From positions 1 through 50,657 of IMG/VR virus record IMGVR_UViG_3300028581_000059: a stretch of DNA of 50,657 nt; one strand, written 5' to 3'. This DNA comes from a virus. How positions within the stretch are numbered: the stretch's first letter is position 1; each line of letters begins with the position of its first letter. Of the stretch, positions 1 through 50,657 are shown piece by piece. Under the pieces are notes generated by a model. The model worked only from the letters and a program-made list of their open reading frames with translations. It was not told the origin of the DNA and ran no database searches. Both the position numbers and the translations under genes were made by a program.

Positions 1-343
1 CGTTCCCGATAACCTGTATGACACCGCGTGCGAAGCCGTGGGGACAAACTTTGCCGGCGCGACCAGCATGATGGACCCCGACAGCGCAAACGGCAAGATC
101 AATACCCAATACAAGAGATGGACCGTTATCGCGTATCCGCGTCTCGACGACTACGATACGAATAACTGGTTCATGGTGGATTCCAAGAAGATGAAGGAAT
201 ACCTGCTGTGGGTTGATCGTATTGCGCCGGACATCGAGACCACGAAAGACTTCGAGACCAAGATGTTCAAAGAATCGGTTTATAGTCGGTTTGGGTATGG
301 ATTTACTGAATGGAGATGGCTGTATGGAATGTCGGTTTCTTAA
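1..343 (+). CDS. Major capsid protein, C-terminal part (cut by window start)
   Basis: The open frame runs in from the window edge (first full codon at 2) and stops at 341-343, giving 113 residues. The text (VPDNLYDTACEAVGTN, then RWTVIAYPRLDDYDTNNWF) looks like the end of a Mu-like or HK97-fold capsid subunit. The gene beginning at 50195 gives the matching N-terminal half and is cut at the other end, so both are almost certainly one gene of a circular map. The role would be the icosahedral shell subunit. A structured terminator-like element follows at 421-530. The capsid assignment is inference from family resemblance and position after a scaffold-like gene. Confidence 0.75.
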   Translation, partial: VPDNLYDTACEAVGTNFAGATSMMDPDSANGKINTQYKRWTVIAYPRLDDYDTNNWFMVDSKKMKEYLLWVDRIAPDIETTKDFETKMFKESVYSRFGYGFTEWRWLYGMSVS

Positions 344-9300: not shown

Positions 9301-9427
9301 TGAACTGTGTCCTGCGTGCGGAAAGAAGATGAAACTCTACCGCCCATGTTGCGGTTCATCGGAAGGGTATAAAGGATGCCCGTGTGGTTATAAGGTGGTA
9401 GTCGAGGGAGACAAAAGGAGAAAATAA
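9218..9427 (+). CDS. Small zinc-ribbon protein overlapping its neighbour
   Basis: 69 residues with CPACGKK, PCCG and CPCG, that is six Cys in a compact ribbon. It overlaps the preceding gene by 83 bases and runs to 9427, where the stop overlaps the next ATG (TAATG). The 83-base overlap is long. A later TTG start at 9245 would shorten it but lacks a well-spaced ribosome site. The Cys pattern makes coding likely. Confidence 0.55.
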   Translation: MDLVEHLRGLTKSSKKDEIPGAVEAYLDELCPACGKKMKLYRPCCGSSEGYKGCPCGYKVVVEGDKRRK

Positions 9428-10020
9428 TGCGTCTTTGCACGGTAGAGGGATGTGGAAGAAAACATTCTGCAAAAGGTCAATGCCGGATGCACTATAAACG
9501 AATAAAGAGACCACGGAAAACGTGGTATCACCCAAACCGGATTTTTGTGCGTGACGGATATGCAGAGATCGAATTGCTTCATAAAGATTCAACGATATCG
9601 TTTGCGCAAATAGATATAGAGGACGTTGAAAAGGTAAGTGCGTACCGATGGGTAATGGCACACGGGTACGTCAAAAAGAATCGCCCCAGTGAGTATCTAC
9701 ACCAATTCCTCATTGGGAAGCAGACCGGTTATGTAAATGACCATATTAACAGAGACCCGTTGGATAATAGAAAATCTAATCTGAGATTTCTGAAACACAG
9801 TGAAAACTTGTGCAATAGGGGGTTACCGCAAAACAATACTTCTGGTTATAAGGGAGTATCGTTTTCAAATAAACGGGGGAAGTGGTGTTCATTTATTCAT
9901 TTGAAAAATATTGCGGAACGGTACGTTGGAACATTCAATAATCCCGTAGATGCGGCAGTTGCATATAACAATGCGATGAAAAAATATGTGGGAGATGTGG
10001 CGTGGTTGAACCAAGCGTAA
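9427..10020 (+). CDS. HNH-AP2 homing endonuclease
   Basis: 197 residues. The N-terminal zinc-like motif CTVEGCGRKHSAKGQC (4-19) is followed by HY. The HNH core contains NDHINRDPLDNRKSNLR (about 103-119), with DH then N and N as in plant-AP2-linked phage HNH proteins. The C-terminal AP2 domain (about 135-190) has TSGYKGVSF, KWCSFIHL and GTFNNPVDAAVAYN. It resembles the gene at 21296-21958, so the phage carries two relatives. It lies within the virion gene run and overlaps the next gene by 19 bases. Confidence 0.88.
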   Translation: MRLCTVEGCGRKHSAKGQCRMHYKRIKRPRKTWYHPNRIFVRDGYAEIELLHKDSTISFAQIDIEDVEKVSAYRWVMAHGYVKKNRPSEYLHQFLIGKQTGYVNDHINRDPLDNRKSNLRFLKHSENLCNRGLPQNNTSGYKGVSFSNKRGKWCSFIHLKNIAERYVGTFNNPVDAAVAYNNAMKKYVGDVAWLNQA

Positions 10021-19110: not shown

Positions 19111-20319
19111 ATGGACGCAAATTTAAGAAGAAGAATAGATGCTGATCTTGCCGGGAGTGTCGAGGCTATCGCTTATGGCGGCGTGGAGTATCCATCCTAC
19201 CATGTCAACATCCCAGCTTTCACGATTCTGGATGTGGATGGAGTGACCTTCGGGGGATTCTATGCTGACAAATATGTATGCTCTCAGCCAACCGCATCCT
19301 TTACGGAAGGCTCGCCCAATGTTGCCCATAACGGCGCGGCGGCGGCGGTTCCGGCCATTTCAAAGCCGGGCGTTCCTGCCTGGGATTTTATCACCTTTCC
19401 GCAGGCGATGATTGCGGCGGCCAACAGGGGCAAAGGATGGCATTTAATCACGTCCTTTGAGTGGGCGGCCCTGGCCTTCCTGTCCAAGAAGTTCAACACG
19501 CTGCCGCACGGCGGAAACGCCAACGCCAATCCTCCGTCGGATGTAGGCTTCACGGCCGAGATTGCAGCCTTAGACAGGCACCTACACGTCGAAAATGTCG
19601 ACTGGCACCGCGCCCTTCCCGGCACCGGCCCGAATGCCTGGGCGCACAATCACCTGGCGTCGGGTGTGTTCGATCTGCAGGGCCTGGTCTCGCAGTGGGT
19701 CATGGGACTCTTTATCGGCGTGGCCGGAACGGATGGTCATCCGGAGGTGCTCGGATCGCTGGATGTCACCTATACCGGATCTCCCTATGGCCGGGGGACG
19801 ATCAGCGGGTCCGGCGGGGCAACGCCGTCATTGACTTTGGATGGTGCAGGCGTCAACTGGCTTAAAGCCTGGGGTGCAGACGCCTTTAATGGCATGTCTG
19901 TGTATATTGCCGAGGCGGCAGGCGGTGCAGGCGCATTCTATGCTATCACCGATACGACCCCCACCACGCTGGTGCTTACCGCGTCCGATGCACCGGGCGA
20001 TGGGACGGCAACATTCGTGATCTGCAAACACATCGCGACGGATATCGGCGGAGGATGTACCAGCGCGCAGAAGATTTTGACCTTGCGGGATGCAGACGCG
20101 GATCTGAAGCCTTTTGCTATCCCAGCGACAACGGACGGATCCGGTGCGGCGGCATACGGCAACGACGGTTATTGGTTTGATAAGTCGGCCTTACGCGCGG
20201 CCTTACGTGGCGGCGGCTTCAACGACGAGGCGGACGCCGGGGTGTTCGCGCTCTACTTGGCCCACGCGCCGTCGTACGCGAGCTGCTACGTCGGGTTTCG
20301 CGCCGCAAAGAGTTTGTAA
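19111..20319 (+). CDS. DGR variable protein (C-type lectin/FGE-fold receptor binder)
   Basis: 402 residues, AAAGGAGG upstream. The N-terminal part leads into GKGWHLITSFEWAALAF (about 110-126), a hallmark of phage DGR target proteins with a formylglycine-enzyme-like C-type lectin fold. An Ala/Gly/Thr-rich insert follows at about 210-300. Residues 361-401 are the variable end, LRAALRGGGFNDEADAGVFA onward to GFRAAK, and match a template copy downstream that is mutated almost only at adenines. The protein is probably the tip adhesin. The region is visibly richer in G+C than flanking genes, in line with import as a cassette. Confidence 0.9.
   Translation: MDANLRRRIDADLAGSVEAIAYGGVEYPSYHVNIPAFTILDVDGVTFGGFYADKYVCSQPTASFTEGSPNVAHNGAAAAVPAISKPGVPAWDFITFPQAMIAAANRGKGWHLITSFEWAALAFLSKKFNTLPHGGNANANPPSDVGFTAEIAALDRHLHVENVDWHRALPGTGPNAWAHNHLASGVFDLQGLVSQWVMGLFIGVAGTDGHPEVLGSLDVTYTGSPYGRGTISGSGGATPSLTLDGAGVNWLKAWGADAFNGMSVYIAEAAGGAGAFYAITDTTPTTLVLTASDAPGDGTATFVICKHIATDIGGGCTSAQKILTLRDADADLKPFAIPATTDGSGAAAYGNDGYWFDKSALRAALRGGGFNDEADAGVFALYLAHAPSYASCYVGFRAAKSL
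20193..20311 (+). repeat. DGR variable repeat (VR)
   Basis: 119 bases at the 3' end of the variable-protein gene, aligned without gaps to 20737-20855 (offset 544). I count 15 mismatches, 14 of them where the template has A (replaced by G, T or C) and one T-to-G (20278). The last 21 bases, 20291-20311, are identical to the template and fit the initiation-of-mutagenic-homing side. Confidence 0.95.
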
Positions 20320-20371
20320 ATCTGGTATCTGGAATCTGTTTATCTGTTTTTTTGATTTTCAAAGGGAGTTG

Positions 20372-20737
20372 ATGATGGGATCAGGCATGGGAGAATTGAC
20401 ACTATACCAAAAGATATATGATTTGATTCTCTATGCACTTCCCATCATCAACAGGTTTCCACGATCCCAGCGGTTTGTTTTAGGGCAACAGCTCCAGAAC
20501 GGCATGATAGAGATCTCCGCGATGATCGTGCAGGCCCAAAAGATAAAAAATAAACTGCCGACGCTCTATGAAACCGACATCAAGTTAGAAGAATTGAGAT
20601 TGTTGGTCCGCCTGGCCAAAGATCTGAAATTCATGCCGATCAATAAATATGAGAACCATTGCAAGAAGATCGATGAAATCGGACGGCTGTTGGGAGGGTG
20701 GATAAAACAGTCTCAAATCCAGGGTCGCAATTGCTAA
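20372..20737 (+). CDS. avd: Avd, DGR accessory protein
   Basis: 121 residues from the first ATG of a doublet, with AAAGGGAG upstream. Four long helices: LYQKIYDLILYALPIINRFP, RSQRFVLGQQLQNGMIEIS, a Lys-rich helix, then KYENHCKKIDEIGRLLGGW. This matches the S23-like four-helix bundle of Avd, the pentameric basic partner of DGR reverse transcriptases, which binds the template RNA. It lies between variable repeat and template repeat, the same order as in Bordetella phage BPP-1. Its stop codon overlaps the template repeat by one base. The usual partner reverse transcriptase is absent. Confidence 0.85.
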   Translation: MMGSGMGELTLYQKIYDLILYALPIINRFPRSQRFVLGQQLQNGMIEISAMIVQAQKIKNKLPTLYETDIKLEELRLLVRLAKDLKFMPINKYENHCKKIDEIGRLLGGWIKQSQIQGRNC

Positions 20738-20855
20738 CGCGCAGCCTTACGTGGCGGCAACTTCAACAACGAGGCGAACGCCGGGGTGTTCGCGCTCAAC
20801 TTGAACAACGCGCCGTCGAACTCGAACTACAACATCGGGTTTCGCGCCGCAAAGA
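20737..20855 (+). repeat. DGR template repeat (TR)
   Basis: 119 bases homologous to the variable repeat. Read in the variable-protein frame it has ten AAC codons (GGNFNNEANAG, ALNLNNAPSN, SNYNIGF), the usual codon design that lets adenine mutagenesis reach many residues without making stop codons. It begins at the avd stop. No open reverse-transcriptase frame follows. Confidence 0.95.
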
Positions 20856-21001
20856 TAAGGACACCATCAGCCCGATCGGCCGGGAATTTGTCCCGGACGC
20901 AGTGCGTAAATCTTTGGAATTGCGATCCTTACCGAAAGGTAAAACATCAAAAAAGAGACTGCGCCCCTGGAAGAGGTACTTCGAAACTTTCTGTTGACGA
21001 G
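20856..21001 (+). ncRNA. Probable DGR RNA spacer after the template repeat
   Basis: 146 bases that in BPP-1-type systems form the spacer part of the DGR RNA needed for cDNA priming. CCGGGA (20880-20885) and TCCCGG (20891-20896) make a hairpin, and the rest is A-rich near 20940-20960. Open frames through it are best explained as chance. Assignment by position only. Confidence 0.45.
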
Positions 21002-21178
21002 GTGAATCCCATTGATTTCTCTGCTGTAAATTCCGTTAAACAAGTCCTCACCCCCTCCACCTCCGGCTGCACCATCGTCACCGCAAAGGGCGGGACGGTG
21101 TATAATTTTGCTTATAAGAATGCTTCGTTTTCCTACAACGAGGCCAGTTATTACGTGATTGTCCGCTTGCTCCGGTAG
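21002..21178 (+). CDS. Possible small protein after the DGR
   Basis: 58 residues from a GTG with ACGAG just upstream (NPIDFSAVNSVKQVLTPSTS, then a beta-like stretch ending YYVIVRLLR). It occupies the start of the space where a DGR reverse transcriptase is usually found but shows none of its motifs. The frame stays open upstream into the template repeat, so the start is uncertain and the frame may not be used. Confidence 0.3.
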   Translation: MNPIDFSAVNSVKQVLTPSTSGCTIVTAKGGTVYNFAYKNASFSYNEASYYVIVRLLR

Positions 21179-21189
21179 TGAGATATAGG

Positions 21190-21218
21190 TTGACATTAAA
21201 TGCACAACATGATACATA
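21190..21218 (+). promoter_or_regulatory. Sigma70-like promoter for the third HNH gene
   Basis: TTGACA at 21190-21195, a 17-base spacer, and TACATA at 21213-21218. Its place just before a hairpin and an endonuclease gene suggests independent expression of the mobile gene. Confidence 0.45.
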
Positions 21219-21228
21219 ATTTAGCAGA

Positions 21229-21257
21229 ACGACAAGGAGATTTCGGCTCCTTGTCGT
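21229..21257 (+). other. Perfect 11-bp hairpin in the endonuclease leader
   Basis: ACGACAAGGAG (21229-21239) pairs with CTCCTTGTCGT (21247-21257) around a 7-base loop. There is no T-run, so it is not a standard terminator. The 5' arm holds AAGGAG and the true ribosome site GGGAGG lies at 21282-21287. It may control translation or mRNA stability. Confidence 0.55.
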
Positions 21258-21295
21258 CCCTAACCACAACACAACCTTTATGGGAGGTATGTATC

Positions 21296-21958
21296 ATGGC
21301 TAATCCGACAGTATCAAAACCCACAAGTGTTTGCAAGAAAAGAACCCGTAGAAAATATGTTCCCGCAACCTGTGAAATTGAGGGGTGTGACGGGAAATAT
21401 TTAGCAAAAGGGATGTGCGCTAAACATTACTGGCGACTATATGCTGGAAAAGACCCCCTCAAGAGGACACGGTTTGATCCAAACGAGATTGTTATCAAAG
21501 GAAATATTGCGGAGATCGTCCTATATGACAAAGATGGAAACGAACGCAACCGGGCGATTGTTGATGTGGCGGATGTTCCAAAAGTAACCGGGGTGAAATG
21601 GTGTCTTTTGGGTGATTTAAACTATGTCGTAAGTTCCGGTGGATCTTTGCTCTTACACCGTTTGCTTTTAGATGCTCCCGATAGCATGGAAGTGGACCAC
21701 AAGAATCGTAATACATTGGATAATAGACGAGCGAATCTTCGTTTGGCGACCCATGCTGACAATAGACATAATTTATGTTCCCGAAGGGGTGGAAGTCAAT
21801 TCAAGGGTGTGTGTTATTTCAAGCCAGCAAAAAAATGGAGAGCGCAAATAGCATCTAAACACTTGGGTTATTTTCGGTCTGAAGAAACCGCTGCCCTTGC
21901 CTATGATAAAGCGGCAAGGGAGCAATTCGGTGAATTTGCAAGGACGAATTTTGCATAA
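21296..21958 (+). CDS. HNH-AP2 homing endonuclease (second copy)
   Basis: 220 residues from the ATG at 21296, GGGAGG nine bases upstream. The N-terminal CEIEGCDGKYLAKGMC then KHYWR mirrors the zinc-like start of the gene at 9427. The HNH core is MEVDHKNRNTLDNRRANLR (about 128-146). The AP2 domain (about 160-215) has QFKGVCYF, KWRAQI and YFRSEETAALAYDKAA. It has its own promoter-like sequence and sits exactly where a DGR reverse transcriptase would be expected, so it may have replaced or displaced it. Confidence 0.88.
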   Translation: MANPTVSKPTSVCKKRTRRKYVPATCEIEGCDGKYLAKGMCAKHYWRLYAGKDPLKRTRFDPNEIVIKGNIAEIVLYDKDGNERNRAIVDVADVPKVTGVKWCLLGDLNYVVSSGGSLLLHRLLLDAPDSMEVDHKNRNTLDNRRANLRLATHADNRHNLCSRRGGSQFKGVCYFKPAKKWRAQIASKHLGYFRSEETAALAYDKAAREQFGEFARTNFA

Positions 21959-23971: not shown

Positions 23972-24020
23972 CCGTGGCGGAATAAAGCACAATGAAATAA
24001 GATATTTAACTATCCTTATG

Positions 24021-24045
24021 GTAGGTTCGAATCCTACCGGGCGCA
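24021..24045 (+). other. Phage attachment site (attP) with tRNA 3' end
   Basis: GTAGG (24021-24025), loop TTCGAAT and CCTAC (24033-24037) form a perfect T-arm, followed by CGGGCGC, the 3' acceptor strand, and A. The 5' half of a tRNA is missing, so this is a tRNA fragment and not a tRNA gene. Its partner 5' end would be GCGCCCG, which fits many tRNA-Arg genes. The adjacent integrase supports attP; the exact core limits need the bacterial site. Confidence 0.8.
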
Positions 24046-24048
24046 CTA

Positions 24049-24081
24049 CTAACCCCTTGAAAAATCAAGGGGTTAGTTTTT
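24049..24081 (+). terminator. Terminator hairpin between lysis genes and integrase
   Basis: CTAACCCCTTGA (24049-24060), AAAA loop, and TCAAGGGGTTAG (24065-24076) form a perfect 12-bp stem, followed by five T (24077-24081). It overlaps the stop codon of the minus-strand integrase and probably ends the late transcript. Confidence 0.85.
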
Positions 24082-25200
24082 GGTTTTCGTTGTGGAAACT
24101 TTGGGGAAATCGACTACTCTCCCCCTCTGTTCCAACGCCTCTCCGATCATCGTTCTTTGCCGCTTGGCGTATCGGCGGGTGGTCTTGATGGAGGTATGCT
24201 TATAGACGTCTTGAATGAAGTCAATGCTATATCCAGTATCAGCGAGTTGGCAGCCAAGAGAATGCCGGACAGCTTCATATAAGCCGATTGTAATTCCGCA
24301 TTGTTGGCAAGCGTTTTTCCAGATGCTATTGAGTGCCTTTGAATCGTAATGAGATCCTCTTTCATTTTTATTAAAGACATACACACTGTTTCGTCTAAGT
24401 CCATCAATCGCCTCCTTTGCCCTGGTGGTGAGTCTTTCCTCCCTGATTGCCCCGGTCTTAGTCGTTTCTCTTAAACGGTACTCAGAATGGCTCCTTTTGA
24501 AAATAATCTTGTCAGCGGTCACGCAATCCCATTTCAGGGCTGTCGCTTCCTGTGGGCGTATCCCGTACTCCATCATCACTATAAATATGGGCCTGTGCCT
24601 CTCAGGAATGGCCCGTAGGACGTTTTGTTGCTCTTCGAAGGTAAGGTAGGCCGTCTGTTCGGGCGGTTCTTTAGAAAGCGGCGGGAAGATCGGCATAACG
24701 AACGTAGGCACATCCTGTTTGTAAAATCGTAGCATGGTCTTTAGGGCCGTCAGGACATTGTATTTCCCTGCGGGGGACAGGGTAAGCGACTTTTCGAAAA
24801 GGAGAAGCTTCGAATGGGTGAAATGCCGGATGTCCATATCCGCCCCGAAGTAGGCCATGACGTGATTGATGGCGTTCCGATAGACCTTCCGGGTATTATG
24901 GCAAGCTCCTGTTGCTGAAAGCCATATCTTCGAATACTCTGAAATGGAAAGCGGGGATTCCGGGCGGTAGGTCCGGGGATCGAAGATTCCATTGCCGATA
25001 TCGCCCTGGATCTGACCAAGCAGTTTGTTAGCCTGTCGCTTATCAAAAAGAGGATCTCCGCTCGTTGACCTCCAAAACCACTCCGTTTTCCCGTGCCAAT
25101 ACACCGCAACGGCGAAGCGATCCTTTTTCCAGTGGACAGACCCCTTCACGTAATCACCCCCCGGTGAGGTCTCTATGCGGTATTTAAGCGCCAGTGTCAA
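24073..25200 (-). CDS. int: Tyrosine-recombinase integrase
   Basis: 375 residues. An N-terminal arm-binding region, a SAM-like core-binding helical domain (about 85-170: SISEYSKIWLSATG onward), and a catalytic domain with Arg215 (GIRPQE), Lys near 248, Arg312-His313, His335 (YKHTS) and nucleophile Tyr344 (TTRRYAK). The first His of the usual HxxR box is Glu309 here. It integrates and excises phage DNA at the tRNA-linked attP next to its 3' end, with the likely arm repeats beside it. The gene is the last of the minus-strand run. Confidence 0.92.
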   Translation of the reverse strand: MTLALKYRIETSPGGDYVKGSVHWKKDRFAVAVYWHGKTEWFWRSTSGDPLFDKRQANKLLGQIQGDIGNGIFDPRTYRPESPLSISEYSKIWLSATGACHNTRKVYRNAINHVMAYFGADMDIRHFTHSKLLLFEKSLTLSPAGKYNVLTALKTMLRFYKQDVPTFVMPIFPPLSKEPPEQTAYLTFEEQQNVLRAIPERHRPIFIVMMEYGIRPQEATALKWDCVTADKIIFKRSHSEYRLRETTKTGAIREERLTTRAKEAIDGLRRNSVYVFNKNERGSHYDSKALNSIWKNACQQCGITIGLYEAVRHSLGCQLADTGYSIDFIQDVYKHTSIKTTRRYAKRQRTMIGEALEQRGRVVDFPKVSTTKTKN

Positions 25201-50194: not shown

Positions 50195-50657
50195 ATGGGA
50201 AATCCATTGGTTTCAAGTCAATTCATCCGTCTTTTGGATGATAGACTTCGCAAGGTTTATGTGGATTCCTTCAAGGAGCTTCCTTCGATGATTGACCGCC
50301 TGTTCGGGGTTATCAAGTCGGATAAAGCCTGGGAGGAGTTCTACGGAATAGGCGCAGTGCCTGATATTCCCGCGTTCAGCGGGACGTTGGAATATCTGAG
50401 CGTTGCTCCTCAGTATTACACCCGGATCGAACCCAAAGAGTATGCGGGTGCGATCACTATTGAACGGAAACTGATCGACGACGAACGCTACGGTGTTATT
50501 AAAAGCCGTCAGCAGGGACTTGTTGATTCTCTTATCCGTGTGCGTGAGAAGTTAGGCGCTCAGGCTTTCGGTTATGCCTTCTCGTCTGCTTTCACGTTCC
50601 AGACCAGCGAGGAAGGGGTTGCCCTTTGCTCTTCGTCCCATACGACCAAGAGCGGTG
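50195..50657 (+). CDS. Major capsid protein, N-terminal part (cut by window end)
   Basis: 154 residues visible, AGGAGG upstream. RLLDDRLRKVYVDSFKELPS (about 12-31) and VAPQYYTRIEPKEYAGAITI (about 70-89) fit Mu-gpT-like and related capsid subunits. The remainder starts at base 1. The edges are out of phase by one base, so the missing piece should be 1 mod 3 in length, roughly 0.15-0.2 kb. Confidence 0.8.
   Translation, partial: MGNPLVSSQFIRLLDDRLRKVYVDSFKELPSMIDRLFGVIKSDKAWEEFYGIGAVPDIPAFSGTLEYLSVAPQYYTRIEPKEYAGAITIERKLIDDERYGVIKSRQQGLVDSLIRVREKLGAQAFGYAFSSAFTFQTSEEGVALCSSSHTTKSG

Follow-up and report, generated by a model that had tools for sequence, protein, structure and literature searches.

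Why would a phage keep the target gene, accessory gene and template of a diversity-generating retroelement (DGR), all apparently in working order, and carry no reverse transcriptase (RT)? The locus described here raises this question. The window, as we call it below, is an entire IMG/VR record (50,657 bp). Large DGR surveys begin from the RT gene, so cassettes that lack RT escape them. We conclude that the window is probably the nearly complete genome of a temperate phage with a BPP-1-type DGR, in which the RT gene was recently deleted and the cassette is now non-autonomous.

Organization of the cassette and evidence for past mutagenic homing

The elements follow one another as variable (target) gene, variable repeat (VR), avd, template repeat (TR) and structured RNA spacer (Sp), which is the order of BPP-1-type DGRs. 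The original prediction had placed the first four in this standard order, and their coordinates (19111-20855) and the avd profile matches agree with it. The target gene (19111-20319, plus strand) codes for a 402-aa protein, probably a tail-tip or receptor-binding protein, which matched PHROG 2889 (2.4e-34) and, over its C-terminus, tail protein PHROG 5302. Its residues 4-202 also matched the Thermus aquaticus DGR variable protein 5vf4 (1.6e-10), with the VR lying outside the matched part. The VR forms the 3' end of the gene (20190-20311, plus strand) and aligned without gaps to the TR (20734-20855, plus strand) over 122 bp, at an offset of 544. There were 16 mismatches between the two repeats, 15 of which fell at a template A (chance p ~1.4e-8), and 15 of the 31 template adenines were changed in the VR. 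The adenine-directed pattern seen in the original prediction therefore stands, although its count of 14 of 15 has to be corrected, and mutagenic homing has happened in this cassette, as had been claimed. A 21-bp stretch at the 3' end of the VR (20291-20311, plus strand) is identical to the TR and occupies the place of the IMH (initiation-of-mutagenic-homing) site; by analogy with BPP-1, it is a putative IMH site.

The avd gene (accessory variability determinant; 20372-20737, plus strand) is intact and codes for 121 aa, with matches to Pfam bAvd (3.3e-30), to PHROG 3206 Avd (3.2e-35) and to the Bbp7 structure (PDB 4dwl, 9.4e-4). This last match, like the gene order, is shared with the DGR of Bordetella phage BPP-1 (mtd-VR-avd-TR-brt), whose TR is 80% identical to that of the window over 87 bp, and which also has a spacer between TR and the place of RT (144 bp, from the annotation). 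The window differs from BPP-1 in that brt is absent and a spacer of ~111 nt is joined to a fragment of a tail gene. A further difference is that no inverted repeat of at least 6 bp, which could form a hairpin or cruciform just after the VR, was present at 20290-20380 of the window; none was present in an RT-bearing relative (G010, below) either. Such a hairpin was reported to be important, but not strictly required (PMC12875486). Similarity of the window TR extended to TR regions in the Vibrio phages VHML and VP585.

The missing reverse transcriptase

An RVT_1 search of all six frames of the whole record did not detect RT, whereas the identical search detected RT in 8 of 13 related records. 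No credible RT remnant was found in the window by tblastn with the RTs of relatives or with an RT profile built from them. Matches near 20752-20958 were rejected as a remnant, as they corresponded to translated TR and spacer, which are read through in stop-to-stop frames of two related cassettes (G004 and G005). The lack of RT claimed in the original prediction was thus upheld by these searches, and because the record has no match to RVT_1 or to a DGR RT profile, the cassette is an RT-less derivative of a DGR and not a complete DGR.

It was necessary to consider whether RT could lie in a part of the genome that the record does not cover. The major head protein is cut by both ends of the record: its N-terminal 154 aa are found at 50195-50656 (plus strand; PHROG 371, Pfam Mu-like_gpT) and its C-terminal 113 aa at 2-343 (plus strand; C-terminus of PHROG 4523/133), and the two parts are 96% and 88% identical, respectively, to the protein of a syntenic relative, G021 (IMGVR_UViG_3300009085_000039, 50,183 bp). 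This relative shares most head, packaging and structural genes with the window, many with 54-96% protein identity. Its head protein is a single ORF starting at G021:32936, with 138 bp between the parts that match the window ends, and its record is opened elsewhere in the same gene order, which fits complete, circularly permuted genomes. Judged by this comparison, the window genome is nearly complete, with ~138 bp missing. As the RT gene measures ~1.05 kb, it cannot hide in this gap, and a location of RT in the missing segment was rejected. The missing piece is free of RT and, although small as first proposed, is smaller than the 0.2 kb given at that time.

G021, though the nearest relative over the whole genome, was rejected as a keeper of the DGR. 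Target gene, avd and RT are all absent from it, and other tail genes are found at the corresponding place. A search of viral sequences with the 1759-aa protein of the window yielded no relatives. Beside the integrase gene (24073-25200, minus strand), a sequence resembling a tRNA 3' end (24013-24045; similar to tRNA-Arg by eye) is probably the attachment site, and ARAGORN reported no complete tRNA there. Since this att-like sequence is inside the record, the sequenced form is not an integrated prophage cut at att.

The spacer (20856-20966, plus strand) was recognized by blastn homology to those of three RT-bearing phages (G001, G002 and G010), and ~111 of its ~150 nt are kept. Examination of related phages for an RT gene after the TR, suggested with the original prediction, gave a clear answer: in these three phages RT starts 149-152 bp after the TR, that is, 40-47 nt past the end of the spacer homology with the window. 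At this place the window instead passes, within a junction at 20967-21013, from DGR homology to homology with tail genes of G021 and of another relative, G013. A 58-aa ORF beyond it (21002-21178, plus strand) is a fragment of a tail protein. It shares 60% identity (40 aa) with an internal segment of a 481-aa G021 gene (G021:2995-4440) and 51% identity (47 aa) with G013. As spacer homology runs for ~111 nt and a tail-gene fragment follows where the relatives have RT, we infer that RT was deleted. The deletion would have taken the RT gene along with ~40 nt at the 3' end of the spacer.

It had also been proposed that an HNH gene displaced RT. The gene in question (21200-21958, plus strand; Pfam HNH_3, 1.8e-9, and AP2) resembles homing endonucleases and is not part of the DGR. 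It begins ~190 bp beyond the junction, which adjoins the tail-gene fragment, and a paralog is present elsewhere; thus, the proposal found no support. This HNH/AP2 paralog is located at 9427-10020 of the same phage and is 35% identical to the gene at 21200-21958.

Related cassettes with and without reverse transcriptase

The three RT-bearing phages mentioned above (IMGVR 3300025154_000318, G001; 3300020171_000288, G002; 3300002220_000377, G010) have cassettes close to that of the window: their TRs are 91-92% identical to its TR over 117 bp, their Avd proteins are 57-61% identical, and in G001 and G010 the target gene is 65-71% identical. Unlike the window, all three have a full YMDD RT of ~355 aa, and G001 and G010 have a second, remote target gene. 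The VRs of these remote genes are ~6.5-9 kb from the TR (L001 19124-19246 and L035 17578-17697), with 14 of 14 and 18 of 18 mismatches at A, respectively. The RTs of G001 and G010 appear to act on these remote VRs in their own genomes.

In a broader set of 92 related avd loci (12 viral and 80 from GTDB genomes), 89 had a DGR RT inside the fetched flanks. The exceptions were one phage (G003) and two short GTDB contigs (L088 and L138), for which contig ends may be the explanation, and no VR/TR pair was detected in any of the three. With RT near 89 of the 92 loci, the idea that such cassettes normally lack RT was rejected. The same frequency, and the metagenomic origin of the record, would be compatible with an assembly artefact, with RT present in the phage and dropped at the junction during assembly. 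However, 20930-21020 contains no 12- or 14-mer that is repeated in the window, the record covers nearly the entire genome and is for the most part syntenic with G021, and both sides of the junction are biologically sensible. A misjoin mediated by repeats was rejected, as there are no repeated 12-mers at the junction, and we consider an artefact improbable. Another thought is that a polymerase of the phage or host that is not an RT copies the template. Beyond the absence of RT itself, nothing speaks for it; when BPP-1 mutagenesis was reconstituted, mutation of the RT active site led to loss of activity (PMC12875486), and a YMDD RT is present in the very similar cassettes of related phages. We give this idea almost no credence.

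Four related phages with the same target-gene family are truncated more deeply from the 3' side. G003 has an intact avd, no RT and only a stub of the TR; G009 retains 13 codons of avd and neither TR nor RT; G012 retains 9 codons of avd; and in G013 the target-gene end is left, with ~57 aa of Avd. RT loss therefore recurs in these phages. If the cassette in the window is dead, it forms with these four a stepwise view of the loss of hypermutation, in which the last successful tail tip is kept.

G009 is informative in another respect. In the stretches compared, it shares with G010 (both with IMG prefix 3300002220) only a 1,294-bp target-gene segment, with 95% identity (16955-18248 of L034, which is G009:54000-72922; 9445-10738 of L035, which is G010:20000-37952). 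Compared with the G010 TR, the G009 VR is changed at 14 adenines and at one further site, whereas the G010 VR is changed at 10 adenines; two of the changes are identical in both VRs. Because this 1.3-kb segment stands alone and the two VRs are changed at mostly different adenines, the comparison suggests that target modules move between otherwise dissimilar phages and were diversified separately.

Recent deletion or a helper enzyme

The remaining parts were examined for wear. Non-A differences between VR and TR were taken to reflect how long ago homing last occurred; one of 91 non-A sites was changed in the window, against a range of 0-7 among 13 RT-bearing pairs. This single event has a Poisson 95% upper limit of ~0.06 per site, which is small next to the synonymous distance of 1.26 between the target genes of the window and G001. 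Because the VR and TR of the window match as well as those of RT-bearing relatives, the deletion seems recent when set against how far these cassettes have diverged, as far as one repeat pair can tell. The window and G001 TRs, read in the VR frame, differ by 8 synonymous and no nonsynonymous changes. Although the TR itself is not translated, such synonymous-only change marks a template that was once in use.

Relative-rate tests of Avd (against three relatives, with four outgroups) revealed no acceleration and no excess of unique changes, and relaxed selection on Avd was rejected as leaving no sign in these tests, although at four positions the protein departs from a residue that at least 8 of 9 homologs share. 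The TR 3' end and spacer were also described by a covariance model from which the window and G001 had been left out. Window 20826-20969 matched the model along its whole length and scored 95.3 bits. G001 scored 115.5 bits, the RT-bearing G006 79.8 bits and seven more distant cassettes ~26-43 bits; the model had no match in G003, which has the TR stub. Rfam had no match at the spacer. In the window, one hairpin in the 3' part of the spacer is weaker and ~40 nt are gone, so that the RNA might not work even if RT were supplied.

Without help, the VR would be frozen in its current state. If a compatible RT were available in trans, from a co-infecting phage, a resident prophage or a host element, Avd and the TR-Sp RNA could direct adenine mutagenesis of the VR. 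It is possible, as suggested in the original prediction, that the window phage uses such a helper RT, and the cassette might even be maintained as a non-autonomous DGR, with a prophage, a host DGR or a frequently co-infecting phage supplying RT and selection keeping avd, TR and spacer. Several observations are in line with this: every part but RT looks constrained, the RTs of G001 and G010 appear to reach VRs at a distance, and the segment shared by G009 and G010 indicates that cassettes move between unrelated phages. Moreover, a BPP-1 phage deleted for avd, TR and brt was complemented by a plasmid that gave all three in trans (PMC3240598), and RT and TR RNA can be expressed apart, with no need for a shared transcript (PMC12875486; PMC3521204). 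However, no helper RT was found for the window phage, the other RT-less relatives lose avd and TR stepwise, which looks like decay, and no helper is needed to explain the intact parts if the deletion is recent. No TR similar to that of the window turned up when one genome per GTDB species was scanned with an exact pattern, and in the 80 GTDB genome loci even the best TRs were at most ~80% identical to it; on both grounds, a host DGR with a matching TR was rejected. We regard maintenance by a helper as rather unlikely. Slightly more doubtful still is the specific form in which selection preserves target, Avd and template RNA in the phage while RT comes from a different phage or prophage; a single enzyme would then diversify the receptor-binding proteins of several phages of the community.

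Since no helper was found and a recent deletion suffices to account for the intact parts, we consider a newly disabled element more likely than one that is actively helped. Most likely, the cassette is silent most of the time, lacking a helper, and is at an early stage of decay. If RT-less cassettes were served in trans, tail diversification would be a resource common to phages, and the evolution of host range would depend on co-infecting phages. In either case, Avd and TR-Sp RNA in a phage without RT offer a natural way of testing if the template RNA of one element can serve a related RT from another.

RT loss with RT available in trans has precedents. The literature searched contained no case of a phage genome close to complete that had lost RT but kept avd, TR and spacer intact. 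In Pseudogulbenkiania sp. NH8B, a second RT is strongly mutated and the other RT was proposed to serve all VRs (PMC3521204), which also favors the helper model. As in the window, RT was lost at one set of target genes, but the helper RT is in the same genome, and this is a bacterial chromosome rather than a phage. A nanoarchaeal DGR (OTU1 contig 26) was listed as incomplete without an RT ORF (PMC4372165); it resembles the window in this, but is on a metagenomic contig of a cell, and RT-bearing DGRs occur in the same archaeon. Finally, Treponema denticola has leftover target genes without RT and TR (PMC4891356). As in the window, their VRs record past A-directed mutagenesis after RT loss; the TR, however, is lost too, which brings them closer to G009 and G012.
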